NCBI GenBank assembly: GCA_026393675.1
Contig: JAPKZQ010000040.1
Coordinates: forward strand, 62,001-126,000
DNA: 64,000 nt
Reading direction: 5' to 3'
From: Acidobacteriota bacterium
GTDB lineage: Bacteria > Acidobacteriota > Vicinamibacteria > Vicinamibacterales > JAKQTR01
Positions 6,059-60,399 of this stretch are shown in pieces. The notes beneath the pieces are model-generated. The model made no database searches. It was given only the letters and a program-made list of their open reading frames with translations, and was not told where the DNA came from. The position numbers and the translations under genes were made by a program. The first letter of the stretch is position 1, and the number at the start of each line of letters is the position of its first letter.

Positions 6059-6067
6059 GGTGTAAGA

Positions 6068-37418: not shown

Positions 37419-37493
37419 GTCCCCATCGTCCAGGGGTTAGGACGTGGCCCTTTCAAGGCCGAAACCCGGGTTCGAATCCCGGTGGGGACGCCA
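37419..37493 (+). tRNA. tRNA-Glu (anticodon UUC), attachment target of the element
   Basis: A complete 75-base cloverleaf with CCA. The acceptor stem GTCCCCA/TGGGGAC is perfect, the anticodon loop CTTTCAA carries TTC, and the T arm is CCGGG-TTCGAAT-CCCGG. The final 17 bases are repeated at 58882-58898, so the element entered at the 3' end and left this gene intact. It is a predicted MnmA substrate. Confidence 0.96.
37477..37493 (+). other. attL core of the element
   Basis: The 17-base sequence TCCCGGTGGGGACGCCA, part of tRNA-Glu, is identical to 58882-58898. Flanking bases differ at once on both sides (A and T here, G and C there), which fixes the core length. Confidence 0.88.
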
Positions 37494-37694: not shown

Positions 37695-38306
37695 CTACCT
37701 GGATAGAAACTCAGCAATCTTCAGTGCGAGAAGGTGGCCTCCGCCCGCCTCTAGCACGTGGCGAATCGACTGGAGGCAGTCCGCGACGATTGAACGCTTG
37801 GGCGTCGGGTTTGATAGTTGCGCGGCGATCGTGTTGACATCGCTCTCGACCGACTGTCGACCATCGCCTGGTAGATCGAGGTGACTGAGGGCTGTCCGGA
37901 TCTCACTCAGGAGTGCCTGAACAGCCGGCGCATCAGAAGCGCCCATCGTGAACGTCTGCACGCTGTCTCTGCTTCCCTGCTGGATCTGCGAGTGCTCCAT
38001 CCGTTCGACGTTGATGATGTTGACTGGTGGGAAGTACGTCGTCGCCGTGCCCGGCTCAGACACGGCGCGTTCGTACTCGCAAATACCTTCGTGAGTAATC
38101 CCCATGTTGTGGCCGAACGCCACACATTCGATAAGGCGTTCCGCGGTCAGATACTGGACGACGGCTTCCAGGCGGTCGTCGGTCCAACCGAGCTCGGAGC
38201 CGATTTCCCTCTCGTCGATCGCCTCGTCTGAGGCACCATCGGTCCGATTGTAGATGGCCTCGAGGAACGCAAATCGGTCCGCTTTCTTCCTGTCAATCGG
38301 CTCCAT
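37695..38306 (-). CDS. Winged-helix-like protein with IQQGS motif (leftward gene of the element)
   Basis: A 203-residue protein with a strong ribosome site (AGGAGG) before ATG 38306. Residues ~1-75 (DRFAFLEAIYNRTDGASDEA, IGSELGWTDDRLEAVVQYL) look like a winged helix that would read DNA. A linker then carries INVERMEHSQIQQGSRDSVQ, a short motif shared by several uncharacterised proteins, some linked to abortive infection. The C-terminal ~80 residues are helical. It runs opposite to the main cassette, where temperate elements usually keep their repressor or superinfection genes. I do not recognise the family. Confidence 0.7.
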   Translation of the reverse strand: MEPIDRKKADRFAFLEAIYNRTDGASDEAIDEREIGSELGWTDDRLEAVVQYLTAERLIECVAFGHNMGITHEGICEYERAVSEPGTATTYFPPVNIINVERMEHSQIQQGSRDSVQTFTMGASDAPAVQALLSEIRTALSHLDLPGDGRQSVESDVNTIAAQLSNPTPKRSIVADCLQSIRHVLEAGGGHLLALKIAEFLSR

Positions 38307-38548
38307 GATTCCTCCTGGCGGCTCCCCGCAGAGTGGGGGCGTTTCTTGAGTAGGGGGCAGGTACATCTTCCCGCGGGCAAACCGGTCGTGTACGCCCTAC
38401 TAGCCAGCGCTTCCCGCGCCCTTGGAGCCTACCCAGTCGTCGGTCCGCCCAGCGTCCGATAACTTTCCATTCTCAGCCTCAACGACAGCGACGCGCGCCC
38501 GGGCCGCTCAGCGCCCCGTAGAAGCGTCGAGCGATCGAAGGGCTCTAT

Positions 38549-38938
38549 TCATCGACCCGCGTCAGAAGTCTCGCCAGCCGACAGGAGCGTGTCAGCGCGG
38601 GGGTGTTTCGGTGAATCCTGCGCCAGTGGGTTATCGAGGAAGCCGGGCGAGTCGTCCAGTAGCAGCCAGGCGCCGAGGGGATTCGCGTCGGTGATGCCGA
38701 ACCGCCCCGAGTCGTTCTCTGTGTCCGCACCGCGGAGCCGCGCTTGGTCGAGTCGCAGATTGAGGCGACGCGCGATGCGTGCCTCAATCGCCGGCGCCGC
38801 CTGATCGTCCTTGGCGTCGTCGCGCCGTTCCCAGTCCGGACGCAGGCCAACGAGCTCGCCCTTCGTCTTCGACCAGGGACTCACAAACCCCATCATTCCC
38901 CCGTGCCACACGACTTCGAAGTTCGGCATCGGTCTCAT
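38549..38938 (-). CDS. Hypothetical protein of the element
   Basis: A 129-residue frame starting near a CGGAG site. The sequence (FEVVWHGGMMGFVSPWSKTK, later GAWLLLDDSPGFLDNPLAQD) shows no motif I can name. Codon use is ordinary for the element and no competing gene is better on the other strand, so it is more likely real than not. It may be transcribed with the winged-helix gene to its left, 242 bases away. Confidence 0.5.
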   Translation of the reverse strand: MRPMPNFEVVWHGGMMGFVSPWSKTKGELVGLRPDWERRDDAKDDQAAPAIEARIARRLNLRLDQARLRGADTENDSGRFGITDANPLGAWLLLDDSPGFLDNPLAQDSPKHPRADTLLSAGETSDAGR

Positions 38939-40429: not shown

Positions 40430-40959
40430 GCGCTAGTGTCCTTCGTTTCCCAGCCCTCGAAGACCGCGCCCGCATCGTTGCCGCGCGAGCCTCTGGAAGC
40501 GCGTTGGGGCTGTCGCCAACGGAGGCGGGGCTTGTCGCGCAGTTCCGTGCTCTGCCGGCACACGTCCAGCCCCTGATGGTCAACGTAATGCTGGAGACGT
40601 TCGACAAGTTCATGTGCGAGCCGGCCCCTCCGCCCGCTCTCAGTTGGGACGAGCCGTACCGCGAGTCGCAGAGGCAGGCGGTTGAAGCCTTGCGCCAGCG
40701 CCACCACCCGACCCCGCAGACCCCCGTTCCCGGTCCAGACTCGCCCGATGGAGTGTCCGCCCGTGCGTTAGCTCGACTTCACGCCGTGGGCCTGTTCACA
40801 CTGGGGGACCTTGCGCGCTTCAGGAAACACGAACTTGGGCGCTCCGTGAAGTATCTCAACATGAACGCCGCCGACAAGCTGGAGCGGTGGTTCCAGGCGG
40901 CCGGGCTCACGTGGCGCGACGACACGGTTTCGAGCGAAGCGAAAGGCGGCGCGTCATGA
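40426..40959 (+). CDS. Protein with RNA-polymerase alpha-CTD-like C-terminus
   Basis: A 177-residue protein. The last ~55 residues (ARLHAVGLFTLGDLARFRKH, then AADKLERWFQAAGLTW) follow the helix pattern of the RNA polymerase alpha C-terminal domain, a helix-hairpin-helix DNA- and factor-binding fold. The N-terminal half has no name I can give. It overlaps its neighbours by 4 bases on both sides and precedes the tyrosine recombinase. It might act in recombination accessory binding or transcription control; both are inferences. Confidence 0.65.
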   Translation: MSASVLRFPALEDRARIVAARASGSALGLSPTEAGLVAQFRALPAHVQPLMVNVMLETFDKFMCEPAPPPALSWDEPYRESQRQAVEALRQRHHPTPQTPVPGPDSPDGVSARALARLHAVGLFTLGDLARFRKHELGRSVKYLNMNAADKLERWFQAAGLTWRDDTVSSEAKGGAS

Positions 40960-41987
40960 ACACCGCTCCCGCCCTCGCTGTCCCACGGCCGGAGCTCCTG
41001 TCGCCGGCGCTGATGTTCGGCGACCAGCGCCAGCGCAACGCGCGCAGCATCCTGGAGGCCTGGCGGGCCGGCAAGTCGCCCCACACGATGCGAAGCTACG
41101 AGCACGACCTTGAGGCCTTCGCCCGGTTCCTCTCGGCGGGCCTGGACATCGCCCCGTCGCTCACGGTCGAGGCTGCGCTCGATCGACTCTTCCAACAGGA
41201 CAGCGCGAGCGCGCACGGGATCGTTCTGAATTTCCGCGGGTCGCTCCTGGCTGCCAACCTCGCGCCAGCAACGATCAACCGGGCGCTTGCAACTCTCCGC
41301 TCTGTCTCGAAACTCGCTCGCATGCTTGGCGTGGTTCAGGGCGGTTGGATCATCGAGGTTCCGGGCGTGAAGGCCGAACGTCGCCGCGACACGCGCGGGC
41401 CGGCGGTGGAGGACGTGAGACGGATGCTTGAGGCGACGGCCGCCGACACCGAGACGGAGACACGCGACCACGCGATCGTCGCGACGCTGTTCTGCTTGGG
41501 CCTCCGGGTTTCGGAACTGTGCGGACTCAATCTCGAAGAGACGGACCTCGCGCGAGGCACCACCTGGATCCGCGGTAAGGGTCGACGCGAGCGCGAGCTC
41601 GTGCCCCTGCCAGAGACCGTCGTCGCGGCGCTGCGCCGGTATCTGGCGCACCGCGGCGCCGTTGGCCAGGGGCCGCTGTTTCTCAGCCGATCGCATCGGC
41701 CCGGGATCGGCGGCACTAAGAGGCTCCACGCGCGATCGGTGCTGCGCCTGGTCACTGACCTTGGGGAGCGCGTCGGCGTGCGCGTGTGGTGTCACGCGCT
41801 GAGGCACACAGCGATTACAACGGCCGTCGCACGCGGCGCTGCGGCCGGTCTTCGCCTTGACCAGGTGCGCGCCTACAGCCGACACAAGACGGTCGCCACG
41901 TTGATCGGGTATGTCGACGAACACGACCGGGCCGGCGTTCAACGGCAGATTACCGACGTCGTCGCGGCGGCGCTTGCGGCGGCGTGA
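40956..41987 (+). CDS. Tyrosine recombinase (XerC/D-like integrase)
   Basis: A 343-residue recombinase beginning at ATG 40956, which overlaps the previous stop. The N-terminal SAM-like DNA-binding domain includes SPHTMRSYEHDLEAFARFL. The catalytic set is complete: R184 (GLRVSEL), a lysine in the beta hairpin (RGKGRRERELVPLP), H280-x2-R283 (HALRHTAIT), H310 (YSRHKTVATLIGY) and Y319. It cuts and rejoins DNA through a 3'-phosphotyrosine. It is paired with an excisionase-like HTH gene just downstream. Its relation to the element's attachment site is unclear because a serine recombinase gene actually contains attR. Confidence 0.93.
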   Translation: MNTAPALAVPRPELLSPALMFGDQRQRNARSILEAWRAGKSPHTMRSYEHDLEAFARFLSAGLDIAPSLTVEAALDRLFQQDSASAHGIVLNFRGSLLAANLAPATINRALATLRSVSKLARMLGVVQGGWIIEVPGVKAERRRDTRGPAVEDVRRMLEATAADTETETRDHAIVATLFCLGLRVSELCGLNLEETDLARGTTWIRGKGRRERELVPLPETVVAALRRYLAHRGAVGQGPLFLSRSHRPGIGGTKRLHARSVLRLVTDLGERVGVRVWCHALRHTAITTAVARGAAAGLRLDQVRAYSRHKTVATLIGYVDEHDRAGVQRQITDVVAAALAAA

Positions 41988-43726: not shown

Positions 43727-43924
43727 ATGGACACGACAAGTTTAGCACAGCGTCGACTGGAGCTTGCGCTCGAGAACGAAATCGATGCAGAGACCGCACT
43801 TCACGACCGATCGGCCGCAGTGATGCGCGACCTGTCGTCTCTCCGAGCGGCGAAGGCCGCGCTGGCGTCGGCCCGCGTCACGCTCGCAGCGGCGGTTGAC
43901 GCAGCGAAAAGTGAAGCCGCCTGA
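43727..43924 (+). CDS. Small coiled-coil-like protein
   Basis: A 65-residue protein starting at ATG 43727 after GGAAGGGGG. It is almost wholly helical and Ala-rich (LAQRRLELALENEIDAETAL, then LRAAKAALASARVTLAAAVD), with heptads suitable for a coiled coil. Its stop overlaps the primase-helicase start by 1 base. Function unknown; it may bind or regulate the replication protein. Confidence 0.65.
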   Translation: MDTTSLAQRRLELALENEIDAETALHDRSAAVMRDLSSLRAAKAALASARVTLAAAVDAAKSEAA

Positions 43925-45987
43925 TGGAGACTGCGCTGGCGACCACCCCGCTCGATCGTTTCCTGGCCGCACTCCCGCGGCCGGCGCAACAGAACGGCGG
44001 CGGATGGATGGCCCGATGCCCGGCGCACGAAGATGATCGCGCGTCGCTCTCCATCACGACAGGCGACGACGGCCGCGTGCTGCTCAAGTGTCACGCGGGT
44101 TGCCAGGCGGCCGCGATCACCGCGGCGATGAGTCTGGAACTGCGCGATCTGTTCCCTCCTCGTGACCAACACGACTCCGAGCTGACGTACGACTACCGCG
44201 ACGAGACGGGCGCGGTGCTGTTTCAGGTCGTGCGTTTTCCGAACAAGCAATTCCGTCAACGCCGCCCAGACGGCCGCGGCGGGTGGAGCTGGTCGCTCAA
44301 TGGCGTGCGCCGCGTGCCGTACCGTCTGCCAGACCTCAAGGGCCGTGAAGCAATCTTCATCGCCGAGGGCGAGAAGGACGTCGAGAACCTCTGGCGCGTG
44401 GGCCTGCCGGCGACGACGAACGCGGGCGGCGCCGGGAAGTGGGCACCGGAGTATTCGACGCTACTGAAGGCGTTGGGCTGTCAACGCGTCGCGATCTTTC
44501 CCGACAACGATGCGCCTGGCGATGCGCACGCGCGCGCCGTGGCTCGGAGCTGTCACGACGCCGGCCTGTTCACGAAGATCGTGCCCCTTGCCGGCCTCGA
44601 ACAGAAAGGCGACGTCAGCGATTGGCTGCGCTCGCACACGAAGGCGGAGCTGCTCGAGGCGATCCGAGTGGCCCCGCCGTTCAATCCGGGCCAGCTCGCC
44701 GCGGCGCCACTGAAGTTCGAGCTTACGACGCTCGCCGATCTGCTCAACGAACCGGACGAGGCGGCGGATTGGCTCATCGAAGAGCGAATGCCTTCCGGCG
44801 GCGTGATACTCCTCGCTGGCCGTCCAAAGGCCGGTAAGTCGACGTTGGCGCGGGACCTGGCCTTTGCGGTCGCCAGCGGGGAGAAGTGGCTCGGGGGCTG
44901 GCGTACGCATCGCTGCGCGGTGTGGTATCTCGCACTCGAAGACAAACGCAGCGAGGTCCGAAAGCACTTTCGAGCGATGGGCGCCACCGGCTGCGAACCG
45001 ATTCGCATCTTCGCCGGCCAGGCACCGAACGAGATCCTGCCCGCGTTGCACGTGCTCGCGGCAACCGAACAGCCAGGGCTCATCGTGGTCGACACGCTAC
45101 AGCGGCTCATCCGGGCGCGTGACTTCTCCGACTACGCCGACGTCACGTCACGCTTCGAGCCCCTGCTTCGGCTGTCTCGCGAGACCGGCGCGACGCTGCT
45201 GCTCTTGACCCATGCCAGCACGCACACCGATCGCTCGGGCCTCGATGCGGTGCTGGGCTCAACGGCCCTCACCGGTTCCGCCGACAACGTCTTCGTGCTG
45301 CAACGCTCGGACAAGTATCGGACCCTCTCCAGCGTGCAACGCGTCGGCCACGACCTCGAGCCCGTCGTGCTCGTGCTGGACGAATCGACCGGGCGCGTGA
45401 CGGTGGCCGGAACCAAGCGGAACGTCGACGACCGGGAGCTCGGGGAGCGCCTACTTGTAACCCTCGAAGGCGAAGCCGAGCCCGTCGCTGAAAAGTGGTT
45501 CGACTCTCACGTCGAAGGCCGCAACCAGGACAAGGGCCGCGTGCTGCGGCGCCTGGTCGGGATGGGCCGCGTCGTGCGCTCTGGCGCCGGCGGCCATCGA
45601 GACCCCTACCGCTACCAGTTGAGTCCCGAAGGCTCAGGACCCCGCAACTCGGCACTTTCATCCGAAACAGCGAAAAGTGCGGGAACCTCACTCGGACCCG
45701 ATTTTACCGATGGGAATCTCGATTTCAGGGATGAGGTTCCCGAGGTTCCTATAAGGAATACCGGGAACCTGATCTCTGAAGAGCCTGTACTTACTCCTCA
45801 AAGGGCTTCTGACCTCGATACCGAGTGCTTGCAGGTTCCCGAGGTTCCGGAGGTTCCCGACTCTTCTGGAAACTGCGGTTCAGCCACGCTCCAAGCATCA
45901 AACGGACCCGATGAAATGGGCTCCGACTTAGGTTCCCGGGAACCGCCCTATCCCCCCGAGTGGGACATCGAGGAGAGCGCACGATGA
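43924..45987 (+). CDS. Primase-helicase replication protein
   Basis: A 687-residue protein combining a zinc-binding primase start (C32-P-A-H35 and C56-HAG-C60), a TOPRIM region (AIFIAEGEKDVENLWRVGLP) and a RecA-like helicase core with Walker A G299-RPKAGK305-S and Walker B IVVD390. Such proteins prime and unwind phage or plasmid DNA. The C-terminal ~100 residues are low-complexity with repeated E-V-P (EVPEVPEVPD), so that part may be a flexible tether. It overlaps the next gene by 4 bases. Its presence implies the element replicates on its own after excision. Confidence 0.9.
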   Translation: METALATTPLDRFLAALPRPAQQNGGGWMARCPAHEDDRASLSITTGDDGRVLLKCHAGCQAAAITAAMSLELRDLFPPRDQHDSELTYDYRDETGAVLFQVVRFPNKQFRQRRPDGRGGWSWSLNGVRRVPYRLPDLKGREAIFIAEGEKDVENLWRVGLPATTNAGGAGKWAPEYSTLLKALGCQRVAIFPDNDAPGDAHARAVARSCHDAGLFTKIVPLAGLEQKGDVSDWLRSHTKAELLEAIRVAPPFNPGQLAAAPLKFELTTLADLLNEPDEAADWLIEERMPSGGVILLAGRPKAGKSTLARDLAFAVASGEKWLGGWRTHRCAVWYLALEDKRSEVRKHFRAMGATGCEPIRIFAGQAPNEILPALHVLAATEQPGLIVVDTLQRLIRARDFSDYADVTSRFEPLLRLSRETGATLLLLTHASTHTDRSGLDAVLGSTALTGSADNVFVLQRSDKYRTLSSVQRVGHDLEPVVLVLDESTGRVTVAGTKRNVDDRELGERLLVTLEGEAEPVAEKWFDSHVEGRNQDKGRVLRRLVGMGRVVRSGAGGHRDPYRYQLSPEGSGPRNSALSSETAKSAGTSLGPDFTDGNLDFRDEVPEVPIRNTGNLISEEPVLTPQRASDLDTECLQVPEVPEVPDSSGNCGSATLQASNGPDEMGSDLGSREPPYPPEWDIEESAR

Positions 45988-46271: not shown

Positions 46272-46759
46272 AAGGCGGACGGAGATGGGCGGTTCGACCG
46301 GTTGTGGCGGAGAAGGTGCGTTCCCGGTCCCAACGGCCGGCGGCTCCTGCCCGGACGAGTCGCCCCCTGCTTGAACGTCAACGGCGCTTTGTTGAAATCC
46401 TCATGGGTGCCGCGTGCGGCAACGCGACGAAGGCGGCGCGGATGGCCGGCTACGCGGAGACGACCGCTGAGAAGCAGGCTAGCCGCTTGTTGGGAAATGT
46501 AGGGATCCGGCGGGCGATCGACGAACGGGCGAAGAGCGACCCGATCGTCTGGACCCGCGAGCAACGGCAACGATTCTGGACGACTATCGCGAGCGGCGCC
46601 GCGGGCTACGACGACGCGGACCTGCGCGATAGGTTGAAGGCTTCCGAGATGCTCGGCCGCAGCCAGGCCGACTTCGTCGACACCGTCAAGCACACGGGCA
46701 CCGTCACGCTCGAGCAGGCGCTCGGGGCTTCGCGAAAGTCGGAGGCGCCCCGTGGTTGA
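46268..46759 (+). CDS. Phage terminase small subunit
   Basis: A 163-residue protein with the terminase small subunit pattern: PLLERQRRFVEILMGAACGN, ATKAARMAGYAETTAEKQAS, then NVGIRRAIDER. The first ~80 residues form the HTH that recognises the packaging site, and the rest is helical. It overlaps the large subunit by 8 bases. Together they form the packaging motor, which cuts and feeds DNA into a procapsid. Confidence 0.85.
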   Translation: MKGGRRWAVRPVVAEKVRSRSQRPAAPARTSRPLLERQRRFVEILMGAACGNATKAARMAGYAETTAEKQASRLLGNVGIRRAIDERAKSDPIVWTREQRQRFWTTIASGAAGYDDADLRDRLKASEMLGRSQADFVDTVKHTGTVTLEQALGASRKSEAPRG

Positions 46760-48209
46760 CCTGGTCACGATGGGCGCGACGCTCCGACGCTGGCGCGAGA
46801 ACATCCTCGCGTTCGTGACCGAGGAGTTGCACGTCGAGCCCGACACTTGGCAGCGAGACGCGCTCGAAGCGTTTGCCAGCCCGGACCCGTCGAAGCGCCG
46901 GATCAGCCTCCAGGCGTGCGTAGGACCAGGCAAGAGCAGCGTTCTCGCCTGGTGCGCGTTGCACTTCCTCGGCACACAAGGCGAACCAGGAGAACACCCG
47001 AAGGGCGCCGCGGTCGCGGTGACCGGCGACAACCTGCGCGACAACCTCTGGGCCGAGCTCTCGAAGTGGATGAGCCGCAGCATCTACCTCTCAACCGCCT
47101 TCACCTGGACGGCCTCGCGCATCTTCGCGAACGACCATCCTGAAACGTGGTTCCTCTCCGCCCGCTCCTGGCCGAAGACGGGCAACGCCGACGAGCAGGG
47201 GAAGACGCTTTCCGGCCTTCACTCGAAGTACGTGCTTGCCCTCATCGACGAGTCTGGGGTGATCCCGCTGACGGTCCTTCGAGCTGCCGAGCAGGCTCTC
47301 TCTAACTGCACGTTCGGCAAGATCGTCCAGGCCGGCAATCCGATCAGCACGGACGGGATGCTCTACGCTGCAGCCGCGCAGCTCCGGCACCTATGGTACG
47401 TCCTCGTCGTCACTGGCGACCCCGACGATCCGAAGCGGGCCCCGAGAGTCGACATCGAGTGGGCGAAGCAGCAGATTGAAACGTACGGCCGGGACAATGC
47501 GTGGGTGGCAAGCTACATCCTCGGGAAGTTCCCGGCGCAGTCGTTCAACAGCCTTCTGAGCGTCGAAGAGGTTCAGGCCGCGATGGGGCGTCACGTCCGA
47601 GAGGACGCCTACACCTGGAGCCAAAAGCGCCTCGGCGTAGACGTCGCGCGCTTTGGTGACGACCGAACGGTCATCTTCCCGCGCCAGGGGCTCGCCGCGT
47701 TCAAGCCCGTGGTGATGCGGGCCGCGCGGACCACCAACATCGCCGCCCGCGTCGCGAAGGGGATCGCCAAGTGGGGCGCCGAGCTGACGACCGTTGACGA
47801 CACTGGGACGTGGGGAGCTGGGGTCATTGACAATCTGCTGGCCGCCGGCGAGTCCGTGCTCGGGATCGTCTTCTCAGACCAGGCGCTCAACCCGCGATAC
47901 CGCAACCGTCGCGCGGAAATGTGGTTCGAGATGGCCGAGTGGGTGAAACGCGGCGGGGGCCTCCCGAACATCCCCGAGATGGTTGCCGAGCTCACGCAAC
48001 CTACCTACACGTTCGCCAACGGCAAGTTCCTGATCGAGGAGAAGGACCAGATCAAGAAGCGGCTCGGCCGCTCCCCCGACCTGGCCGACGCGCTCGCACT
48101 CACGTTCGCCTTCCCCGATCAGCCGGCGTCGCTCTCCGGTGGCTTCGATCGGCAGTCGGTTGGGCACGTGAAACATGAATTTGACCCCTACGCGGAGGCA
48201 CAACGATGA
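46752..48209 (+). CDS. Phage terminase large subunit
   Basis: A 485-residue packaging ATPase and nuclease starting at GTG 46752. The Walker A loop is VGPGK61SS, and LALIDESGVIP forms the Walker B aspartate/glutamate. The nuclease domain begins RLGVDVARFGDDRTVIF with D297 as metal ligand, and later acids lie in SPDLADALALTFAF. The length is normal, so the gene is intact. It is followed by a 98-residue unknown protein rather than the usual portal gene. Confidence 0.9.
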   Translation: MVDLVTMGATLRRWRENILAFVTEELHVEPDTWQRDALEAFASPDPSKRRISLQACVGPGKSSVLAWCALHFLGTQGEPGEHPKGAAVAVTGDNLRDNLWAELSKWMSRSIYLSTAFTWTASRIFANDHPETWFLSARSWPKTGNADEQGKTLSGLHSKYVLALIDESGVIPLTVLRAAEQALSNCTFGKIVQAGNPISTDGMLYAAAAQLRHLWYVLVVTGDPDDPKRAPRVDIEWAKQQIETYGRDNAWVASYILGKFPAQSFNSLLSVEEVQAAMGRHVREDAYTWSQKRLGVDVARFGDDRTVIFPRQGLAAFKPVVMRAARTTNIAARVAKGIAKWGAELTTVDDTGTWGAGVIDNLLAAGESVLGIVFSDQALNPRYRNRRAEMWFEMAEWVKRGGGLPNIPEMVAELTQPTYTFANGKFLIEEKDQIKKRLGRSPDLADALALTFAFPDQPASLSGGFDRQSVGHVKHEFDPYAEAQR

Positions 48210-48502: not shown

Positions 48503-48782
48503 GAACGCCTGTTATCCGTCTGAAGCGAAACCGACAGGAGCGACCGTGCAAACGATTCACAGGAAGGGGCCCCCGCCACCGCCGGAACCAGAGCCGGAGC
48601 GGCGGCCCGCTTGGATGGTGAGGTTGCTTGGCGTGTCGTCGGCTCCAGCAGCCACGGGACCGGACGCCCTCCCCGACGTGGCGGGAACGCCCCCCAGCCT
48701 GCCGGCAGCCACAGAGACGCCGACGAACACGGAACCCGAGACGAGTGCAGCGACCGCCCCGCGGGTGCTGTTCGGAACGTAG
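48495..48782 (+). CDS. Proline-rich small protein
   Basis: A 95-residue protein, low complexity, with GPPPPPEPEPERRPAWMVRL and a Thr/Pro-rich end. It overlaps the previous gene by 8 bases. Its amino-acid bias suggests a disordered linker or scaffold-like protein; no function can be given. Confidence 0.55.
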   Translation: MAENACYPSEAKPTGATVQTIHRKGPPPPPEPEPERRPAWMVRLLGVSSAPAATGPDALPDVAGTPPSLPAATETPTNTEPETSAATAPRVLFGT

Positions 48783-48798
48783 GTCGAAAGGAACCGAG

Positions 48799-50859
48799 AT
48801 GCCCACCGTACGATCGTACCAACGACAAGTCGGACTGGCCCCTCTCCCCGGCGCGCGGCTCACAGCCGCCGAGACGCCGGAGTCGGAAGGCGCCGGCGTG
48901 GCACTCGCGAAGGGCAAACTCGACGTGGCCACCGCGCAGGGCGCAGAGGTCAAGGCGCTCGGTCAGGCGCAGACGTTCGGCGCGATCGCGGGCGTCGCGG
49001 GCAAGGTGGCGAACATTGGCGCGTCGGTCTACGCGGACATCGTCGCGAAGGCGCGGAAGGAGGCGAACGAGACCGCGCTGCTCGGGGCGAAGAACCAGCT
49101 CGACGCCTGGAAAAGCGCGGCGCTCTATGACGAACAGAAGGGCGCTCTCAGGGTCAAGGGAGCGGATGCGCTCGGGCTCCACGAGAAGGTCATGTCGGCC
49201 TTCAACCAAACCGCGGACGCAATCGGCGGGAAACTCACGCCCGAACAGCGGCCCTACTTTGAGAACCTCCGATCGCAGGAGTGGAGCCGAATTGACCTTG
49301 AGGTCCAGCAGCACGCCGAGAGAGAGACCGAGTTAGTCAAGACGGGCGAGGTCGCCACCTTCCAAACGAACCGCGTGATCGAGGCGGTCCACTACGCGGC
49401 GAACCCCAAGGTCTTCCGGGCAAGCCTCGACGCGGGGCTCGCGTCCGTCGACGCCAACGCGTCGCTCTTTCGCATGGGACCGGAACAGGTCGCGGCGAGG
49501 AAGTTGGAGATGACCACGGCGGCACACATCGGGGCGATTCACAATCTCGTCGCGCAGGACCAGGACTCGTTGGCCGCAACTTGGTTCACGGCAGCGAAGG
49601 ACGAGATCGCTCCCGACAAGTGGGACGAACTCCAAACGAAGATCACCGAGGCCACCACAACGCAGACGGCGCAGCGAGAGTCTGACCGGATCATCGCCTC
49701 TGATCTAGATATCGACGGGCAGCGCGCCGAAGCGAAGAAGCTCGACGGCAAGGTGCGCGATATGACGCTGCAGTACGTCGAGCACGACTGGAACGTCAAA
49801 AAGACCAAGGAACACGACCAGGCCGCAGCGCAGAGCTTGGACGCCTACAACGCGCTAGAGGCGTCGGGGTGGAATCTCCGCGTTGCCCATCATCTCCCCT
49901 ACTGGACCCAACTCGATCCAGGCGTGCGGAACATGCTGGAGGAGAAAGCGGCTCGCAAGGCGAAGGGCGAGACCACCCAAACAGACCGCCGCACGTACGA
50001 CGCCCTGATGAATCTGGCGGACAACAACCCTGACGGCTTCATTAGGGAAGACCTGTTGAAGTACCGTCTCGACGAAACCGACTACAAGCACCTGGCGTCG
50101 ATCCGCTCCTCAATTAAGGCCGGCAACCGGCAGGCGGCCGACAAAGAACTGACGCCCTTCCTCACGCGGCAGGAAGTCGTCGACGCTACCCTGAGGCAAT
50201 TCGGCGTCAACCCTAAAGCCAAAGAAGACACGCCGGAGGCGAAGGCCATCGCGCAGCTTCACCTCATGGTGGACCGGCGCGTCTCGGCTATGCAGACTCC
50301 CGCGGTGGACAAGGCCACTGGTGCGGCGCTTCCGGGCAAGAAGGCCAGCAACCAGGACATCCAGTCGATCGTGGACAACATCCTCTCCCAGAAGGCCACG
50401 GTTCCGGGTTCGTGGTGGGGGATCTTCGGTAGCGCGACAAGACCGCTGCTCGACGTGTCCATCGGCGACATTACGCCAGACGAGAAGAAGGCGCTCTCTG
50501 ACGCGCTGGTCGCGAGGGGCAAGAGGCCCAGCGACGCGGCCATTCTCGACTTCTATAAGGAGTTCAAGCAGCGCCACCCAAACGAACCGATCGTCGCTGC
50601 GCCGCTACCGAAAGTGCCGGCCCCGAAGGCGGCGCCTGCGCCCACGACGACACAGGCGCCTGGTGGTGGAGCTATTGACTGGCTGAAGGGGACCGCGAAG
50701 GACGCGGCCGGCGCTGTGGTTGGTGCCGGTCAAGCGGCATGGGAGGGCATCGACGCCGGCGACCGTGTGGCCGCCGCGGCCGTCAAGAAGAACGCCGAGA
50801 GGAAAGCTGCTGAGGACAAGAAGAAAGCCGAAGCGAAGAAGTCCGGGGGGAAACAGTAG
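48799..50859 (+). CDS. Phage internal-virion-like helical protein (686 aa)
   Basis: A 686-residue protein with an AAGGA site before ATG 48799. It is mostly helical and coiled (VATAQGAEVKALGQAQTFGA, EWSRIDLEVQQHAERETELV), with no signal peptide and a Pro/Ala linker before a basic KKKAEAKKSGGKQ end. Such long helical proteins next to giant polyvalent proteins resemble the ejection or internal core proteins of podoviruses. It ends one base before the 2042-residue gene. The role is inferred from size, composition and place. Confidence 0.65.
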   Translation: MPTVRSYQRQVGLAPLPGARLTAAETPESEGAGVALAKGKLDVATAQGAEVKALGQAQTFGAIAGVAGKVANIGASVYADIVAKARKEANETALLGAKNQLDAWKSAALYDEQKGALRVKGADALGLHEKVMSAFNQTADAIGGKLTPEQRPYFENLRSQEWSRIDLEVQQHAERETELVKTGEVATFQTNRVIEAVHYAANPKVFRASLDAGLASVDANASLFRMGPEQVAARKLEMTTAAHIGAIHNLVAQDQDSLAATWFTAAKDEIAPDKWDELQTKITEATTTQTAQRESDRIIASDLDIDGQRAEAKKLDGKVRDMTLQYVEHDWNVKKTKEHDQAAAQSLDAYNALEASGWNLRVAHHLPYWTQLDPGVRNMLEEKAARKAKGETTQTDRRTYDALMNLADNNPDGFIREDLLKYRLDETDYKHLASIRSSIKAGNRQAADKELTPFLTRQEVVDATLRQFGVNPKAKEDTPEAKAIAQLHLMVDRRVSAMQTPAVDKATGAALPGKKASNQDIQSIVDNILSQKATVPGSWWGIFGSATRPLLDVSIGDITPDEKKALSDALVARGKRPSDAAILDFYKEFKQRHPNEPIVAAPLPKVPAPKAAPAPTTTQAPGGGAIDWLKGTAKDAAGAVVGAGQAAWEGIDAGDRVAAAAVKKNAERKAAEDKKKAEAKKSGGKQ

Positions 50860-53800
50860 ATGGCGATCAACCTCTACGACGCAACCCTCGAAGCTCTGGA
50901 CGACCAAGAGCCGTCGCCACCAAAGAATCTCTTGCAGCAGACCCTCGATGAGATCACCGCTGACCACTCTCGGTCCTTGCGGGTCGCGACGATGCAGGCA
51001 CGCGACACCACGCCAGATCGCGCAGTCCAGGTGCGACAGCTCTCCGGCACGTTAGGACTCCCACAAGACGTCGTCGAGCGGAACTTCGACTCGCTCTCGA
51101 AGCGGGCCGTTGTGGAGACCACGCCGTACGACGCGATGCTCCAGCAGACTCCGAAGCTGGCCGAGTGGGCATCCGATCCTCACAACGCGGCGATCGCCAA
51201 AGACGACATGGAGCGCCTCGGGTTCCTGGAGTGGATTGTCAAAGCGCCATCGGCCGCCTACGCGAAGACCACTCTTGAGAGCCGCGCGGCGCAGCTCCGC
51301 ACACGGGAACTTCTCGGTGAGCCACTGACGCAACAGCAGTACTTCGAGATGGAGGAACTACAGAAGGCGGCACAGCAGATTGGCGCCGCGGGAGCGGGGG
51401 ATTCGTGGTTCAAGGGAGCCGTCACAGGCGCGGGCAATCTCCTGGCGAACTTCGTCGAGGGTATGGTCACTGCGGCGCCAGAGGTGGCGATCGGCACCGG
51501 CGTCGGTGCGGTCGTCGGTGGCGTCGGTGGCGGGCTTGCGACCGGTGGTGCAGGTATCCTCCCCGGTCTTCGTGCCGGCGCCGCGCTCGGCGCCCGCGTG
51601 GGCGGGTTGGTCGGCGGCGCGAAGTACACCTTCCAGATCGAGGCGGGCAACGCCTACGACGAATACCGCACCTTCAAGGACGAGCTCGGTCGTCCGCTCG
51701 ATCGCGAGACGGCTCGGGCCGCCGCGTTTGCTGCGGGCTCCATCAATGCCGTGCTCGAAGTGGGCGGCATCGAAATGTTCCTCCGAACCATCCCGGGCAT
51801 CAAGGATCTCGGCAAGAAGGGCGTCCGCGAAGTGGTCAAAAGCGCGCTCCGGAATCCGACGATCCGCGCGCAGCTTGTGGCGGTCGCGAAGGACTACGGC
51901 AAGACGCTGACTGGCGAGTCGTTCATTGAAGCCGCTCAGCGTTACTCGACCATCCTGAGCGGGGAATTTGGCAAGGTGGCCGCCGGGCCGAACATTCCCC
52001 TCCGCACGCCTGGCGACATCGCCGGCGACGTGGCGCGCGAATTCGGCGGCGCCCTGCAGTCCTTCTCGCTCGGCCTGGCCATCATGCCGACGGTGGGTCT
52101 CGTGCACGACGCGCAGCGCGCGGTGCGAGCCACCCAAAACGAACACTTCTTCGCGGCACTCGGTGAGGGCGTGTCGCAGTCGAAGACGGTCCAGCGGATG
52201 CCCGAGGCCGCGCAGGCGTTCCTCGCGCAGGCGACGAAGGACGGCCCCGTCGAGACGCTGTACGCGCCCGTGGACACGTTCACGACCTACTGGCAGTCGA
52301 AGGGGTTGGACCCTGCGATCGTCGCGCAGGAGCTGACTGGCAAGGCCGATGCTCTTGAAGTCGCGCAGCGCACGGGTGAGGACCTGGCCATCCCCACCGC
52401 CGCGTATGCGGTGAAGGTGGCCGGCACTGAGCACAATGCGTTCTTCGCGCAGGAACTGCGGCTCGCTCCAGACGAGATGAACGCTCGTGAGGCGACAGCG
52501 TTCCGAGAGACCCTCACGCGGCAGATGGACGAGGCCAAACAGCGCCAGGCTGAAGGGGTCCAGGTGGCGGCGCCGTCCCAGACTGCGCCGATCCACGTGG
52601 CGATTCTTCAGCAACTCGAACAGGCCGGCGTGCCGAGCGAGACGGCGACCAACTACGCGACGCTGGTGGAGTCGGCGATCGGCACGATGGCCGAGCGGGC
52701 CGGCGTCAATCCGGTGGCGCTCTATAACCGGTATCGGCTTCGGGTGCAGCGTCCCGATCTGCAATCTGCTTCAGTGAACGAGACCGCCCCGGCAGTGGTC
52801 AGGCCCGCCGTTGTCGGCGACGCCGGCGCGGCTGCGACACCTCTCGTGGCTGCGCCGGCGTCCTCTCGGACCGCACCGGCCGTCTCAGGCATGGCGGTCG
52901 CGCAACCCACTACTCGTCTCGCGCCGGCGTCGGACGCTTCGCGGGCGCACCAGCCTGCCAGCGGGCAGGCGCGATCGGTCGTCGATGGCCTCCTCACACT
53001 ATCGCAGGACCGCCGCGGCTCGATCACCTTCGGACCCGACCGCCAGGCGACCATCACGCTGCTCGAGCGGGCCGACCTCAGTTCGTTCCTCCACGAGGGT
53101 GGTCACTTCTTCCTCGAAGTCTTCAGCGATCTGGCCGACCAACTGCGCGCGCTCGACCCTGCCACGCTCACGGCCGAACAGCGCCAGCAGCTCGCCGACT
53201 ACGACGCCACGCTGAAGTTTCTGGGTATTGAGAACCGAGCTGGCCTGAGCACCGACCAGCATGAGACGTTCGCTCGCGCGTTCGAATCCTACCTGATGGA
53301 AGGCAAGGCGCCGAGTGTCGCGCTCCGTTCCACGTTTGCCCGGTTCCGCGCTTGGCTCATCGGGATCTACCGGACGCTGGCCGGGTTGGGCGTGAAACTG
53401 TCCGACGACGTACGCGGCGTGTTCGACCGGATACTGACGAGCGACCAGGCCATTGCCGAAGCGGAGGCCGCCGGCAAGGTCGAGGCGATGTTCACGACGC
53501 CCGAGAGCGCCGGCATGGACGCCGCGACGTTCGGCCTCTACTCACAGACCGTCGCCGATGCCTCCCGGATCGCCCGCGAAACGCTCGAACGCCAGGCGCT
53601 GACCGAAGTCCAGCGCGAGCAGACCGACCAGTGGAAGGCGCAGCGCGCCGAGATTGAACAGGCGGTCACGACGGAAGTCCACCAGGAACCGGTCTACGCG
53701 GCCCTGTGGGCGATTCGGAAGGGGACGCGTCCGGATGGTTCCGCGCTCGTCGAAGGCCAGCCAGCCGAGCCGCTACATCTGTCCCGCGCGATTCTGGTGG

Positions 53801-56800
53801 AACGCTACGGCGAAGCGCGGCTGAAGAGGCTGCCGCCGTTCACCTACGCCAAGGAGGGCGGGCTCGACCCCGACGTCGTCGCGGGGCAATTCGGGTTCTC
53901 GTCGGGCGACGAGATGCTGACGGCCATCAGCCAGGCGCCGGCGATGTCGAAGGCGATCGGGCAGGAGGCGAACCGGAGAATGTTGCAGCAGCATGGGTCG
54001 CTCCTCCTGGATGGCAGCCTCCACGAGAAAGCGCAAGCGGCCGTCGCGAACGAGTCACGCGAGCAGGTCGTCCGGCAGGAACTTCGCGCGCTGGCAAAAC
54101 TGAAACGCATCGCCACGCCCTTTGAGCGCGCCGGCAAAGCGGCTGTTGCTGACGCCGAGACGGCACGCGCCTATGAACGCCGCTGGTTCGAAGCCGAAGC
54201 CAAACTCCGGATCGCCATCGCCGAGGGACGCAAGCAGACGGAGATCGACGAGCTGCAGGACGAGCTGCAGGCGGCTCGTGAGAAGACCCAGAGCGGACCG
54301 TCCGTCATCGATGCCGCGATTCCCCGTGCCGCCGACCTGCGGCAGATGGCAGTCGACCGGATCGCCCGCACGCGGATCCGCGACATCAATCCACAGGCCT
54401 TCTGGTCGGCCTCGCGGCGTTCTGCGCAGCTCGCGATCGACGCCGCGGCCAGACAGGACTTCGACGCGGCGATCGTCGCGAAGCAGCAGGAGTTACTGAC
54501 GCTCGCGCTCTACCGCGAAGCGATGCGCGTCAAAGAAGACGTCCAAAAGCGGGTCGGGCGCGCGAAGGACCTGGCAAAGCCGGCTGCCCGAGAACGGCTG
54601 GGCAAGGCCGGCGAGTCGTATCTTGACCAGGTCGACGGGATTCTCGACCGCTACGAATTCGCGCCAGTGTCGAGAACGGCACTCGACCGCCGGGCTTCGC
54701 TGCGGAAGTGGGTCGCGGCGCAGGAGGCTGACGGGATCCCGGTGGATCTGCCCGAGCAACTGCTCGAGGAAACGCGACGCGTCAACTGGCAGGAACTCAC
54801 CGTCGAGGAACTCGTCGGCGTTACCGACGGGCTGCAACAAATCATGCACCTGGCTCGCCTGAAGAACCGACTTCTGAAACTCCAACAGGGCCGCGCGCTC
54901 GACACCGCCGCCACCGCGATCGATCAGTCCATCCGTGCCAACACGCCAGCCAAGGCCCTCCCGTTGGAGTTTGGCCCGCGCGAAGAGCGTCGACGCTCGA
55001 TTGCGGATGTGTTCGCGAGCCTCGCCAAGATTTCCCTGCTCTCACGTGCGCTCGACGGTTACAAGGACGGCGGAGAGATGTGGTCGTCGTTCGTAATGCC
55101 CCTCAACCAGGCGGCCGACTGGGAACAAACGCGCAAGGGGAAGGCCGGCGAAGCGTACTGGGCCATCCTGCGATCGCACTACGCGCCGATGGAGTATGCG
55201 CACTTCGGGCGGAAGACCTTCATCCGAGCCATCAACGCCAGTCTGACCACGGAAGCCCGGCTCGCGGTCGCCCTGAACTGGGGCAACCAGACGAGTCGTG
55301 ACCGCATCCTCTCCGATCCGAGCCGGCGCTGGACCGAGCCGCAAGTCGAAGCGATTCTCGACACGCTCGACGAACGTGACTGGCGATTTGTGCAAGCGAC
55401 GTGGGATTTCCTCGACACGTTCTGGCCTGAGATTGCGGCCAAACAGGAGCGCGTCACTGGAGTGGCTCCCGAGAAAGTGGCTGCGGAGCCGGTCTCAACG
55501 AAGTTCGGGGTAATGCCCGGCGGCTACTACCCGCTGGCGTACGACGCTCGGCTCTCGCCTCGCGCCGCGCGACTCGCCGAAGCCGAAACGGGAAAGACCT
55601 TACTCCAAGCGGCGTACGTGAGTAGCACCACGAGGCGCGGCCACGTCGAGACGCGCGTCTCACATCTCGAACGCCCGGTCCGACTGGATCTGGGCGTGGC
55701 GTTCGGCCACCTCGACCAGGTCATTCACGATCTGGCCTACCACGAGACCCTAATCGACCTCTCCCGACTCCTTCGCGACAAGCGCGTCGCTGAGGCGATT
55801 TACGAGACGCGCGGCGACGCGGTCTATCACCAGTTTACCGAGATGCTCAAGGACGCGGCCACTGGGACGGCACCAGCCACGAATCGCATGGACAAGGCCG
55901 CGAACTGGATGCGCACGGGCACGCAGATCAGCCTGCTCGGGTTCAATTTCTGGACGGCCCTGCAGCAACCGCTCGGGATGTTCAACGGCATGGCGCGTGT
56001 CGGCCCGGTCTGGGTGATGCGCGGGCTCGGCCGGTGGCTGCGCGACGCGGCGCACATGGAAGCGACGACGACTTGGATCGCGGAGGTGTCGCCGCTCATG
56101 CGCGACCGCGTGACGAACGCCACGCAGGACATCAGCGAGCTCCGCTCCGCGCTCCGGCAACCAGGCGGCTGGTTCGATGCGCTCGTGCGCGAGGTCTCGC
56201 GGGGCCGGATGTCCACGGCGCAACTCGCGGACGTCTACCTCTGGCACATCGGCATGGCGCAGCGCGTCGCCGACGTGCCGACGTGGCTCGGGCAGTACAT
56301 GAAAGCGATGGCCGAGCCGACGGAGGGCCTGACCACGCCGGCCGAGCACGAGGCCCGCGCGATCGCGCTCGCCGACCAGGTGGTGCGGGACTTCCAGGGC
56401 ACCTGGCAGGTTCAGGATCTGGCGCATGTCCAGCGCGGCGGGCCAGTGGCGCGGCTGTTTATGGTGTTCTATTCGTACGGCAACGTCGTCTTCAACAGCA
56501 CCGCCGAGATCGTGGGGCGTACGAACTTCCGTAAACCCGGCGACGTCGCCTCGATGCTCGGCGGGCTCTCGCTGCTCTATCTGATGCCCGCGATGGCGAC
56601 GGTCGCGCTGGGGCAACTGGTCGGCCGGAAGCCGCCCTCAGACGAACCCGACAAGTGGGTGAAACAGATCGCGCAAGAGTCGATCGGCACCGCCATGAAC
56701 AGCGTGGTGTTCCTCCGCGAACTCGGCCAACTCGCGCAGGACGGCACGCGTGGGTACGCGGGCCCGGCCGGGATGCGGATGATCCAGGCGGTCTACGGAC

Positions 56801-56988
56801 TCGGTCAGCAAGTGAAGCAGGGCGAATTCGACGAGGGCCTGTGGAAGGCGGTGAACAGCACCGCCGGGATCCTGTTCAGGTATCCCGCGTTGCAGGTTCA
56901 GCGGAGCATCGATGGCGTCGTGGCCTTGTCGGAAGGCACGACCAGCAACCCGATGGCGCTGGTCTCGGGGAAGCCGCTGAAGAAGTAG
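50860..56988 (+). CDS. Giant polyvalent protein with HEGGH metallopeptidase motif (2042 aa)
   Basis: The longest gene of the window. The N-terminal ~400 residues hold Gly-rich hydrophobic stretches (IGTGVGAVVGGVGGGLATGG). A metallopeptidase-like region follows at ~735-845: H745-E746-G747-G748-H749 fits HExxH, with acids E802 and E809 in HETFARAFESYL that could be the third zinc ligand. A long coiled middle leads to a C-terminal part with VARLFMVFYSYGNVVFNSTA and membrane-like segments. The layout matches the large polyvalent proteins that phages and conjugative elements inject with their DNA. It follows the 686-residue gene without a gap. Activity of the peptidase is untested. Confidence 0.82.
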   Translation: MAINLYDATLEALDDQEPSPPKNLLQQTLDEITADHSRSLRVATMQARDTTPDRAVQVRQLSGTLGLPQDVVERNFDSLSKRAVVETTPYDAMLQQTPKLAEWASDPHNAAIAKDDMERLGFLEWIVKAPSAAYAKTTLESRAAQLRTRELLGEPLTQQQYFEMEELQKAAQQIGAAGAGDSWFKGAVTGAGNLLANFVEGMVTAAPEVAIGTGVGAVVGGVGGGLATGGAGILPGLRAGAALGARVGGLVGGAKYTFQIEAGNAYDEYRTFKDELGRPLDRETARAAAFAAGSINAVLEVGGIEMFLRTIPGIKDLGKKGVREVVKSALRNPTIRAQLVAVAKDYGKTLTGESFIEAAQRYSTILSGEFGKVAAGPNIPLRTPGDIAGDVAREFGGALQSFSLGLAIMPTVGLVHDAQRAVRATQNEHFFAALGEGVSQSKTVQRMPEAAQAFLAQATKDGPVETLYAPVDTFTTYWQSKGLDPAIVAQELTGKADALEVAQRTGEDLAIPTAAYAVKVAGTEHNAFFAQELRLAPDEMNAREATAFRETLTRQMDEAKQRQAEGVQVAAPSQTAPIHVAILQQLEQAGVPSETATNYATLVESAIGTMAERAGVNPVALYNRYRLRVQRPDLQSASVNETAPAVVRPAVVGDAGAAATPLVAAPASSRTAPAVSGMAVAQPTTRLAPASDASRAHQPASGQARSVVDGLLTLSQDRRGSITFGPDRQATITLLERADLSSFLHEGGHFFLEVFSDLADQLRALDPATLTAEQRQQLADYDATLKFLGIENRAGLSTDQHETFARAFESYLMEGKAPSVALRSTFARFRAWLIGIYRTLAGLGVKLSDDVRGVFDRILTSDQAIAEAEAAGKVEAMFTTPESAGMDAATFGLYSQTVADASRIARETLERQALTEVQREQTDQWKAQRAEIEQAVTTEVHQEPVYAALWAIRKGTRPDGSALVEGQPAEPLHLSRAILVERYGEARLKRLPPFTYAKEGGLDPDVVAGQFGFSSGDEMLTAISQAPAMSKAIGQEANRRMLQQHGSLLLDGSLHEKAQAAVANESREQVVRQELRALAKLKRIATPFERAGKAAVADAETARAYERRWFEAEAKLRIAIAEGRKQTEIDELQDELQAAREKTQSGPSVIDAAIPRAADLRQMAVDRIARTRIRDINPQAFWSASRRSAQLAIDAAARQDFDAAIVAKQQELLTLALYREAMRVKEDVQKRVGRAKDLAKPAARERLGKAGESYLDQVDGILDRYEFAPVSRTALDRRASLRKWVAAQEADGIPVDLPEQLLEETRRVNWQELTVEELVGVTDGLQQIMHLARLKNRLLKLQQGRALDTAATAIDQSIRANTPAKALPLEFGPREERRRSIADVFASLAKISLLSRALDGYKDGGEMWSSFVMPLNQAADWEQTRKGKAGEAYWAILRSHYAPMEYAHFGRKTFIRAINASLTTEARLAVALNWGNQTSRDRILSDPSRRWTEPQVEAILDTLDERDWRFVQATWDFLDTFWPEIAAKQERVTGVAPEKVAAEPVSTKFGVMPGGYYPLAYDARLSPRAARLAEAETGKTLLQAAYVSSTTRRGHVETRVSHLERPVRLDLGVAFGHLDQVIHDLAYHETLIDLSRLLRDKRVAEAIYETRGDAVYHQFTEMLKDAATGTAPATNRMDKAANWMRTGTQISLLGFNFWTALQQPLGMFNGMARVGPVWVMRGLGRWLRDAAHMEATTTWIAEVSPLMRDRVTNATQDISELRSALRQPGGWFDALVREVSRGRMSTAQLADVYLWHIGMAQRVADVPTWLGQYMKAMAEPTEGLTTPAEHEARAIALADQVVRDFQGTWQVQDLAHVQRGGPVARLFMVFYSYGNVVFNSTAEIVGRTNFRKPGDVASMLGGLSLLYLMPAMATVALGQLVGRKPPSDEPDKWVKQIAQESIGTAMNSVVFLRELGQLAQDGTRGYAGPAGMRMIQAVYGLGQQVKQGEFDEGLWKAVNSTAGILFRYPALQVQRSIDGVVALSEGTTSNPMALVSGKPLKK

Positions 56989-57048: not shown

Positions 57049-57255
57049 GTGTCGAGCCAAACCGCCGTATCATCGTGCGCGCAACCGCCGGATCTCGCCG
57101 AGGTCCTGACGGAAGCGCTCGCCCGCGCGCTTGTGTCGCGGTACCGGCGAACGCACGACATCGGCAACCCTCCACGCGCGCAGCGAGACCGAGCGCTGCA
57201 GGCGCCGCCAACGGAGAGCCATGATCGGGGCCATCTACGCCCGGAAGAGCACTGA
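57049..57255 (+). CDS. Small protein upstream of the serine recombinase (uncertain)
   Basis: A 68-residue frame starting at GTG 57049. Its first half (QPPDLAEVLTEALARALVSR) is a clear helix of the kind found in short genes preceding serine recombinases. The second half overlaps the recombinase start by 35 bases and may be a run-on. No strong ribosome site is visible. Confidence 0.45.
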   Translation: MSSQTAVSSCAQPPDLAEVLTEALARALVSRYRRTHDIGNPPRAQRDRALQAPPTESHDRGHLRPEEH

Positions 57256-58906: not shown

Positions 58907-59172
58907 CAAGACCGTCCAGTAGCCCCTCGGCCTTGGCTGGGGCCTCCCATGCTTCGCTAGTTCGCGTGTGGCGGGAGACTGGAGGGAGCTTTACAGAACC
59001 TTCGTCCGTGTCGGCGTTGTGGGTTCCTTCCACTCGCCGCCCAGCCGATCCAGGTCCTGCACGTCGATCTGTGTCGCTTGTGAAACACGGAATCGTCCTG
59101 CGCGTCGGCCGCGGGTGTCATCTATCGAGTATGATGCGAGTACTCATTTTTCCCCAGAAAGGTAGCCATGTC

Positions 59173-60012
59173 ATGAGGCAGTCGTTTGCAATGCTCTCGG
59201 CTGCTGTGCTCGTGTTGGCGATGACGGCGTGTGGAGGCGGCGGCGGTGGTGGTGGTGGGACGCCCCCAACAACGCCTTCGGTTGTGGTCACATCCGTCAC
59301 AATTAGTGGATCGACGGACATGCTGAAGGTGAGGGAATCGGTCACCTTTACCGCGACGGCAACTCATTCCGACGGCTCCAACGCGGCCGTCACTCAGTGG
59401 TCGACGGACGCGGTCAGCGTGATGACCGTGGACGCGGTAACAGGGTCGGCGACCGGCGTGGCAGCCGGCAAGGCTACGCTCATCGCCAGCCATGACGGTG
59501 TGGTAGGGACTCGGCTCATCCGAGTGGTTCCTGACTATCAGGGCACGTGGTCAGGTTCTTACCGCGTTTCATCGTGCAGCGATACGGGAGATTACACGAC
59601 GTTTGGGTGGTGCAACACAGTACGTGGGCAAGTGCTACCCCTCACGCTCTCGCTCAGTCAGACCCGCGACACGGTCAGCGGCACCATCACCATCTATGAA
59701 TACACCGGCGCTACGTCGGGGCCGATAGCCGACAACGGCGTGATCACTCTGTCGGGCACGGCGGTGAACGGCAACGCGAGCATGACGATCACGAAGTGGA
59801 GCACAACCGCGGCTTCGCCGGGATTAATGACGGGATCGTTCTCAATCCGCAACACTTCGACCGACCTAAGCGGCAGTGCGGAGATGAATTGCGACATTAC
59901 GACGATGCAGAAATCTGCGATGGATCCCGGGGTCGGCCTCGACTCGCCCCGGTGGGGTAGCTCGGTCCTGTCGATTGGCGATGCCCTCCGTGCGATGGGT
60001 GTGAGAAGGTAG
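59173..60012 (+). CDS. Lipoprotein with Gly tract and Ig-like (Big_2-type) domain
   Basis: A 279-residue protein. The signal MRQSFAMLSAAVLVLAMTAC ends in a lipobox cysteine, directly followed by nine glycines and a TPPTTPS linker. Residues ~40-115 resemble a bacterial Ig-like domain (VTISGSTDMLKVRESVTFTA, DAVTGSATGVAAGKATLIAS). The rest is Ser/Thr/Gly-rich. It should be anchored in the outer membrane or exposed. The poly-Gly codons form a GGC/GGT tract. The start is ATG 59173; a longer open frame upstream has no ribosome site. Confidence 0.8.
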   Translation: MRQSFAMLSAAVLVLAMTACGGGGGGGGGTPPTTPSVVVTSVTISGSTDMLKVRESVTFTATATHSDGSNAAVTQWSTDAVSVMTVDAVTGSATGVAAGKATLIASHDGVVGTRLIRVVPDYQGTWSGSYRVSSCSDTGDYTTFGWCNTVRGQVLPLTLSLSQTRDTVSGTITIYEYTGATSGPIADNGVITLSGTAVNGNASMTITKWSTTAASPGLMTGSFSIRNTSTDLSGSAEMNCDITTMQKSAMDPGVGLDSPRWGSSVLSIGDALRAMGVRR

Positions 60013-60063
60013 ACGGTCGGGAGACCACGTAGGAGGGCCGAGGTCAGACGAACGGGAGACCGG

Positions 60064-60399
60064 GTGAACATCCGCCGCATCGCCAAGCTGGATTCGCTGA
60101 AGAATGGCACCATCATCGGCGCCTGCGTGGGAGCAGTCTTCGGGGCAGTAGCGCTAGGCCTTGAGCAGCCAGTCGACAGCGCCGGGAAGAAGATCGGTTT
60201 TGTGCCCGACACCGTCGGGAAGAAGATCGGCGTGATGGCCGGGGTAATCGCCATGTACGCGGGAATCGGCGCGCTGATCGACTATGCCATCAAAGGCCGC
60301 GAGACGGTGTACGAGCGGCCGGTGGGGGTTCCCAGCGTGCATCTCTCACCCATCGTCGCGCCGCACAGCGTCGGCGTTGCCGGGACGATCGCGTGGTAA
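60064..60399 (+). CDS. Small membrane protein with glycine-zipper-like helix
   Basis: A 111-residue protein starting at GTG 60064. The hydrophobic stretches IIGACVGAVFGAVALGLEQ and IGVMAGVIAMYAGIGALIDY have Gly/Ala every three or four residues, as in glycine-zipper membrane proteins. The end is hydrophobic (VGVAGTIAW). It follows the lipoprotein after 51 bases on the same strand. Function unknown. Confidence 0.6.
   Translation: MNIRRIAKLDSLKNGTIIGACVGAVFGAVALGLEQPVDSAGKKIGFVPDTVGKKIGVMAGVIAMYAGIGALIDYAIKGRETVYERPVGVPSVHLSPIVAPHSVGVAGTIAW

Follow-up and report, generated by a model that had tools for sequence, protein, structure and literature searches.

A predicted winged-helix protein with an AbiT-type C-terminal module, a candidate defence gene at the edge of an element integrated at tRNA-Glu in an acidobacterium

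Results

The gene and its reading frame

The window analysed here is the whole 64,000-nucleotide stretch of acidobacterial DNA, in which a reverse-strand gene encodes a protein of 203 residues. The gene and the features upstream of it on the same strand are as follows.

37695–38306, reverse strand: gene of the 203-residue protein with winged-helix, SQIQQGS and AbiT-C parts; its stop codon lies 201 bp from the left att core of the surrounding element
38311–38316, reverse strand: AGGAGG ribosome site, seen in the sequence 4 nt before the ATG
38549–38938, reverse strand: upstream ORF of 129 residues without a family, a possible, putative operon partner of the gene

The protein begins with MEPIDRKK and carries INVERMEHSQIQQGSRDSVQTF, with SQIQQGS at residues 106–112. 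The same frame stays open upstream to an alternative ATG at 38366, and the start was placed at 38306 because the ribosome site stands 4 nt upstream of that codon. The GC content at the three codon positions (0.63/0.43/0.72) is as in the adjoining genes. When the bases of the 1-kb stretch that holds it were shuffled 500 times, a frame of equal length (233 codons between stops) appeared in 11 of the shuffles, and frame length is therefore weak evidence by itself. A full-length homologue exists, however, with an identity of 31–37% by four methods, and by this comparison 37695–38306 is confirmed as a real coding gene. It is present as a single copy in its own genome (3.25 Mb, 46 contigs). No membrane span was found in the protein, the highest mean hydropathy over 19-residue stretches being 1.04. 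Counted from the left edge of the element inwards, no gene precedes it. It is directed away from the rightward main cassette, as the first-pass annotation had described together with the excellent ribosome site.

Boundaries and contents of the element

The element that carries the gene was delimited by an exact repeat, one copy of which lies in a tRNA gene. Its boundaries and main genes are listed below.

37419–37493, forward strand: tRNA-Glu (TTC), the integration site of the element, found with ARAGORN
37477–37493, forward strand: left att core TCCCGGTGGGGACGCCA, the 3' end of tRNA-Glu (exact 17-bp repeat)
40887–41987, forward strand: tyrosine recombinase, inside the element (Pfam Phage_integrase, E = 2e-19)
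43924–45987, forward strand: phage-type primase/helicase (PHROG 239, E = 1e-39)
46752–48209, forward strand: terminase large subunit (PHROG 2, E = 1.4e-23)
48628–50859, forward strand: lysozyme-like virion protein (PHROG 10475), in an order that matches a Pseudomonas phage
50860–56988, forward strand: virion-type protein of 2042 residues (LPD22; Pfam and PHROGs)
57131–58906, forward strand: large serine integrase with Resolvase, Recombinase and Zn-ribbon domains; the conserved part starts near 57221
58882–58898, forward strand: right att core (exact 17-bp repeat), overlapping the 3' end of the serine integrase gene

The stretch bounded by the att cores comprises 21,405 bp (21.4 kb, 37494–58898). 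Of 500 simulated right flanks, 1 had a word of this length (17 bases) in common with the left flank, and a chance repeat is even less likely because the cores sit at the tRNA end and the integrase end. The sister genome G237, of the same genus, supports the element's edge that the first-pass annotation had assumed, since similarity crosses tRNA-Glu, ends at 37493, the last base of the tRNA, and returns only at 62004, save for one serine integrase fragment. A serine integrase relic lies near tRNA-Glu in this sister genome (L035, 3554–3967), and the site was therefore used there too. The 3 kb from the right att core to the conserved flank (58899–62003) is absent from G237 and is unaccounted for by the 21.4-kb element; this stretch contains an ORF for an Ig-like protein, at 58879–60012.

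The exact att cores thus bound a 21.4-kb phage-derived element with two recombinases, one of the tyrosine and one of the serine type, and the 203-residue gene lies just inside attL. In the Pseudomonas phage with the same order of lysozyme and giant protein, portal, capsid and tail genes lie between terminase and lysozyme. No portal, capsid or tail gene, tail-tube included, was seen among the element ORFs scanned, and on this basis the element is a reduced prophage or a phage satellite. Five other small ORFs of the element gave no PADLOC match.

Homologues of the protein

With the 203-residue protein as query, matches at E ≤ 0.001 were found in 2 of 396 genomes of the phylum, its own included, and in 2 of 162 of the order (its own and G402), and a profile of four relatives matched 4 of the 396. 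Single-protein scans of genome_contigs and viral_contigs and one alignment scan of viral_contigs yielded no confirmed relative, and tblastn against phages gave no match for the protein or for its L015 homologue. This best homologue (L015, identical to L020), from G402, another acidobacterium, has 231 residues and the same three parts. Its gene ends 6 bp upstream of a serine integrase that is 53.6% identical to that of the window and whose 3' end overlaps tRNA-Glu.

The relative at L021 has a winged helix and the module without SQIQQGS. Its gene adjoins what we take, from the translation, to be an exonuclease III-like gene, among ordinary chromosomal genes, and this neighbourhood does not suggest a mobile element. 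At L017 (314–3429), an AbiT-C protein with a winged-helix region, or a possible winged helix, adjoins an N6-methylase/HSDR_N gene, and its other neighbour, read from a truncated frame, may be HsdS-like. The N6-methylase with the HSDR_N part is weakly similar, below the cut-off, to MAD2 of the MADS defence system. The L018 match is a winged helix alone, so it was not counted as a full-length homologue; this lone ORF has a GHKL-type ATPase on one side and a DUF2726/zinc-ribbon protein on the other (5927–9002), a gene group that is possibly a defence operon. L037 (G307) was rejected as a family member, its match being weak and confined to the winged-helix part; its neighbours are presumably translation genes.

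Domain structure

The protein is divided into three parts.

38052–38306, reverse strand: winged-helix domain, codons 1–85, assigned by homology to L015, L018 and L021 and by the fold of L021
37950–38021, reverse strand: strand-like linker, codons 96–119, with SQIQQGS (codons 106–112), shared with AbiTii-type tails
37698–37937, reverse strand: four-helix AbiT-C module, codons 124–203, assigned by PADLOC AbiTi and PDC-M14B and by tblastn against plasmids

The N-terminal domain aligns with those of L015, L021 and the short L018. For the 203-residue protein alone nothing significant was obtained with Pfam (best CggR_N, E = 0.14), PHROGs or NCBIfam, and L021 matches HTH_Crp_2 at E = 2.1e-4 and MarR_2 at E = 2.3e-3, values short of the Pfam cut-offs. 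The AlphaFold2 model of L021, built from three sequences (mean pLDDT 79.6), has the topology helix-helix-helix-strand-strand-helix, followed by four helices. The 50 Foldseek matches listed for this model are mostly winged-helix regulators (GntR, MntR, MarR, IclR and CRP among others). The best of these matches has E = 0.007, and none reaches E ≤ 0.001. Less confidence attaches to the model of the window protein itself (mean pLDDT 71), with confident tail helices but not so residues 93–119, where the SQIQQGS linker region is modelled as unstructured (pLDDT < 50). Foldseek with this model gave nothing significant (best E = 0.65), nor did PDB sequence searches. The winged helix proposed in the first-pass annotation is consequently backed by the fold topology of L021, with Pfam matches of L021 below the cut-offs, and is not recovered from the window protein by itself.

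Over residues 1–90 the net charge of the protein is −11, and its helix 3 region TDDRLEAVVQYLTAERL is acidic. L015 has a net charge of −6 over residues 1–105 with a likewise acidic helix-3 region, and the value for L017, taken over residues 1–112, is +11. The charge and the acidic helix-3 regions make an ordinary reading of DNA by the N-domain less likely, as a test at the level of sequence only.

Two PADLOC models match the C-terminal half: PDC-M14B, with a best E of 6.3e-6, and AbiTi, which covers residues 102–202 (E = 4e-4). AbiTi is matched with E = 3.4e-8 in L015 and 3.2e-13 in L006; at the lax threshold of E ≤ 1, 6 of 14 control genomes gave matches to this model as well. In a tblastn search of the 203-residue protein against 72,556 plasmid records, 49 were matched (best E = 4e-15), none over 80% of the protein. 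Each of the five plasmid relatives examined (L004–L008, five of 20 matches listed) has an AbiTii domain by Pfam, at E = 3.3e-10 to 3.9e-47, and behind it a strand motif with helices that align with the 203-residue protein. Homology of the winged helix to part of the AbiTii domain was considered, as the plasmid alignments seemed to extend into it, and was rejected, the strong similarity to AbiTii-type proteins starting near residue 95. AbiTi corresponds approximately to the strand-plus-helices module alone (in the PADLOC model, positions 10–111 of 114 are matched), and the helices of this module are predicted at residues 125–202 of the window protein. Judged by these alignments, the strand and tail share ancestry with the C-terminal module that AbiT abortive-infection proteins carry, and the connection of SQIQQGS with abortive-infection genes that had been proposed earlier holds for the motif and the C-terminal helices, which match AbiTi and AbiTii tails. 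An AbiT-C module also stands at the end of a pentapeptide-repeat protein (L016, 7215–8663).

Comparison with known systems

The C-terminal strand-plus-helices module is shared with AbiT of Lactococcus (AbiTi/AbiTii), whereas the N-terminal part of the 203-residue protein is a winged helix and not an AbiTii domain. The AbiTii domain (PF18864) is absent from the protein, and from the genome at E ≤ 0.01, and no second gene of an abiTi/abiTii two-gene operon was recognised, the neighbouring ORF at 38549–38938 being without a family. Because of these two absences the protein, as far as its sequence goes, is not an AbiT member as such. PDC-M14B, a PADLOC defence candidate, matches residues 96–201 with its C-terminal part (about 160–260), whereas its N-terminal half is unmatched; no mention of "PDC-M14" was found in the literature searched. 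According to PMC3985639, AbiEi antitoxins have a comparable two-domain plan of an N-terminal winged helix and a C-terminal domain. Unlike these, the 203-residue protein has no PADLOC AbiEi match, no recognised adjacent toxin and an acidic winged helix. The likeness to FRG-domain proteins (PDC-S15) is one of position only, the proteins being unrelated: an FRG gene fills the slot upstream of the related integrase at tRNA-Glu in L068.

The slot beside the serine integrase

At E ≤ 1e-60, relatives of the window integrase were found in 18 of the order's 162 genomes, its own included (20 matches). Nineteen integrase loci were examined, made up of 18 fetched stretches and L015, with the window itself left out. 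In 12 of the 19 (L015, L059, L060, L062–L068, L073 and L076) tRNA-Glu (TTC) is no more than 400 bp away from where the integrase match ends, and the integrases abut or overlap it. The contents of the slot upstream of the integrase vary among the loci. The family of the 203-residue gene stands beside the integrase only in L015, with a weak match in L065 (E = 0.013). In L068 (4525–5382) a protein with an FRG domain is encoded 2 bp upstream of the serine integrase. It is matched by Pfam at E = 4.5e-23 and by the PADLOC model of the defence candidate PDC-S15 at E = 1.8e-41, and it is the only one matched by PADLOC among eight integrase-neighbour proteins, the eighth of which is the L015 resolvase-type recombinase. 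Both genomes of the order that have the 203-residue gene fall among the 18 with the integrase (chance under random placement, 0.012). The other 16, several of them incomplete, lack a homologue at E ≤ 0.001, and the protein is therefore not an obligate integration partner; an obligate directionality factor, with the family in just 2 of 18 such genomes, was rejected.

Discussion

The att boundaries, the AbiT-C tail and the recurrence of the architecture at the related L015 element make the 203-residue gene likely anti-phage cargo, and we give an even chance to the view that the protein, carried at the attL edge, works like a one-gene abortive-infection protein against superinfecting phages. The serine integrase would insert the 21.4-kb element into tRNA-Glu with the gene as an accessory. 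The acidic winged-helix domain would sense a protein signal of the incoming phage, not DNA, the SQIQQGS strand would drive assembly, and the assembled AbiT-C helices would stop growth or replication, which would protect the resident element and its host from superinfecting phages. The assignment of the winged helix as sensor and of the tail as output is made by analogy with AbiT, where AbiTii would sense and the tail act. The cargo status suggested by the first-pass annotation is supported by the att edge, the G237 boundary and the survey of the integrase family. That annotation had also named homologues occurring only as core genes away from mobile elements as evidence against it, a pattern that the full-length homologues do not follow, although L021 lies among chromosomal genes. 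The FRG gene in the same slot of L068 and the position of L017 beside an HSDR_N gene are counted in favour of a defence role. Counted against it are the presence of the gene in only two full-length elements, the negative PADLOC results for the other slot proteins and the five small element ORFs, the ordinary neighbours of L021, and the modest model (pLDDT 71).

AbiT was reportedly described in 2002. According to PMC3985639, E. coli is poisoned by the AbiTi of C. catus, which counts in favour of the defence reading; the same assay showed no toxicity for the AbiTi and AbiTii of Lactococcus, and C. catus AbiTii fails to neutralise C. catus AbiTi. The activity of the AbiT-C module is therefore uncertain. 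In other proteins the AbiTii domain is followed by HEPN domains, which are predicted RNases (PMC3710099), an arrangement that would fit a sensing AbiTii and an acting tail.

The main rival explanation is that the protein is a regulator of the element, either a winged-helix repressor or a directionality factor acting on the serine integrase and encoded beside att, which we regard as rather unlikely. Directionality factors often sit near the integrase, and the gene adjoins att here and the serine integrase in L015; the gene-bearing genomes of the order (2 of 2) fall within the 18 of 162 with the integrase (chance 0.012). The predicted fold is also that of a winged helix, and the nearest solved structures among the Foldseek matches listed for the L021 model are transcription regulators. 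However, 16 of the 18 genomes with related integrases, several incomplete, have no homologue at E ≤ 0.001, the N-domain has a net charge of −11 with an acidic helix 3, and the tail is a defence-family module. The acidity would weaken the repressor in particular, which was one of the two functions first proposed, and the other, defence or superinfection exclusion, fits better as a predicted function.

It is improbable that the gene is a passenger without present function in a decaying prophage. Genes for terminase, lysozyme-like protein and giant virion protein are indeed kept in the element with portal, capsid and tail-tube unseen among the ORFs scanned, but the frame of the gene is intact, with a good ribosome site and a conserved architecture, and the serine integrase frame is intact as well. 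Slightly less probable still is an amyloid-type signalling effector, in which SQIQQGS would be a predicted prion-like motif of the RHIM/BASS3 kind and would pair with a receptor that bears it too. The relative L008 reads SQIQIGSNSSNQ, which resembles the RHIM core. BASS3 is described as RHIM-like in PMC8086366 and PMC12261475. Against this reading, the published motifs came from association with NLR proteins, L021 lacks SQIQQGS, and no same-motif partner was found, since QIQQG occurs once in the genome, in this very gene, by an exact pattern that diverged partners would escape.

The occurrence of the AbiT-C module behind differing N-terminal domains points to an output role for the module. As a more tentative proposal, doubtful but possible, AbiT-C would be a portable, self-assembling defence output module that stands behind exchangeable sensors (AbiTii, winged helix, pentapeptide repeat) in bacteria and mobile elements; small serine-integrase elements at tRNA-Glu would carry it in an exchangeable att-side slot for defence genes, the window gene being the winged-helix version. 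Further defence genes of acidobacteria may be found in the slot next to related serine integrases at tRNA-Glu. In genome G373, partial copies of the tRNA-Glu end are found at about 87, 203, 13735 and 15772 (L078, 87–15772), as if by repeated element insertion.
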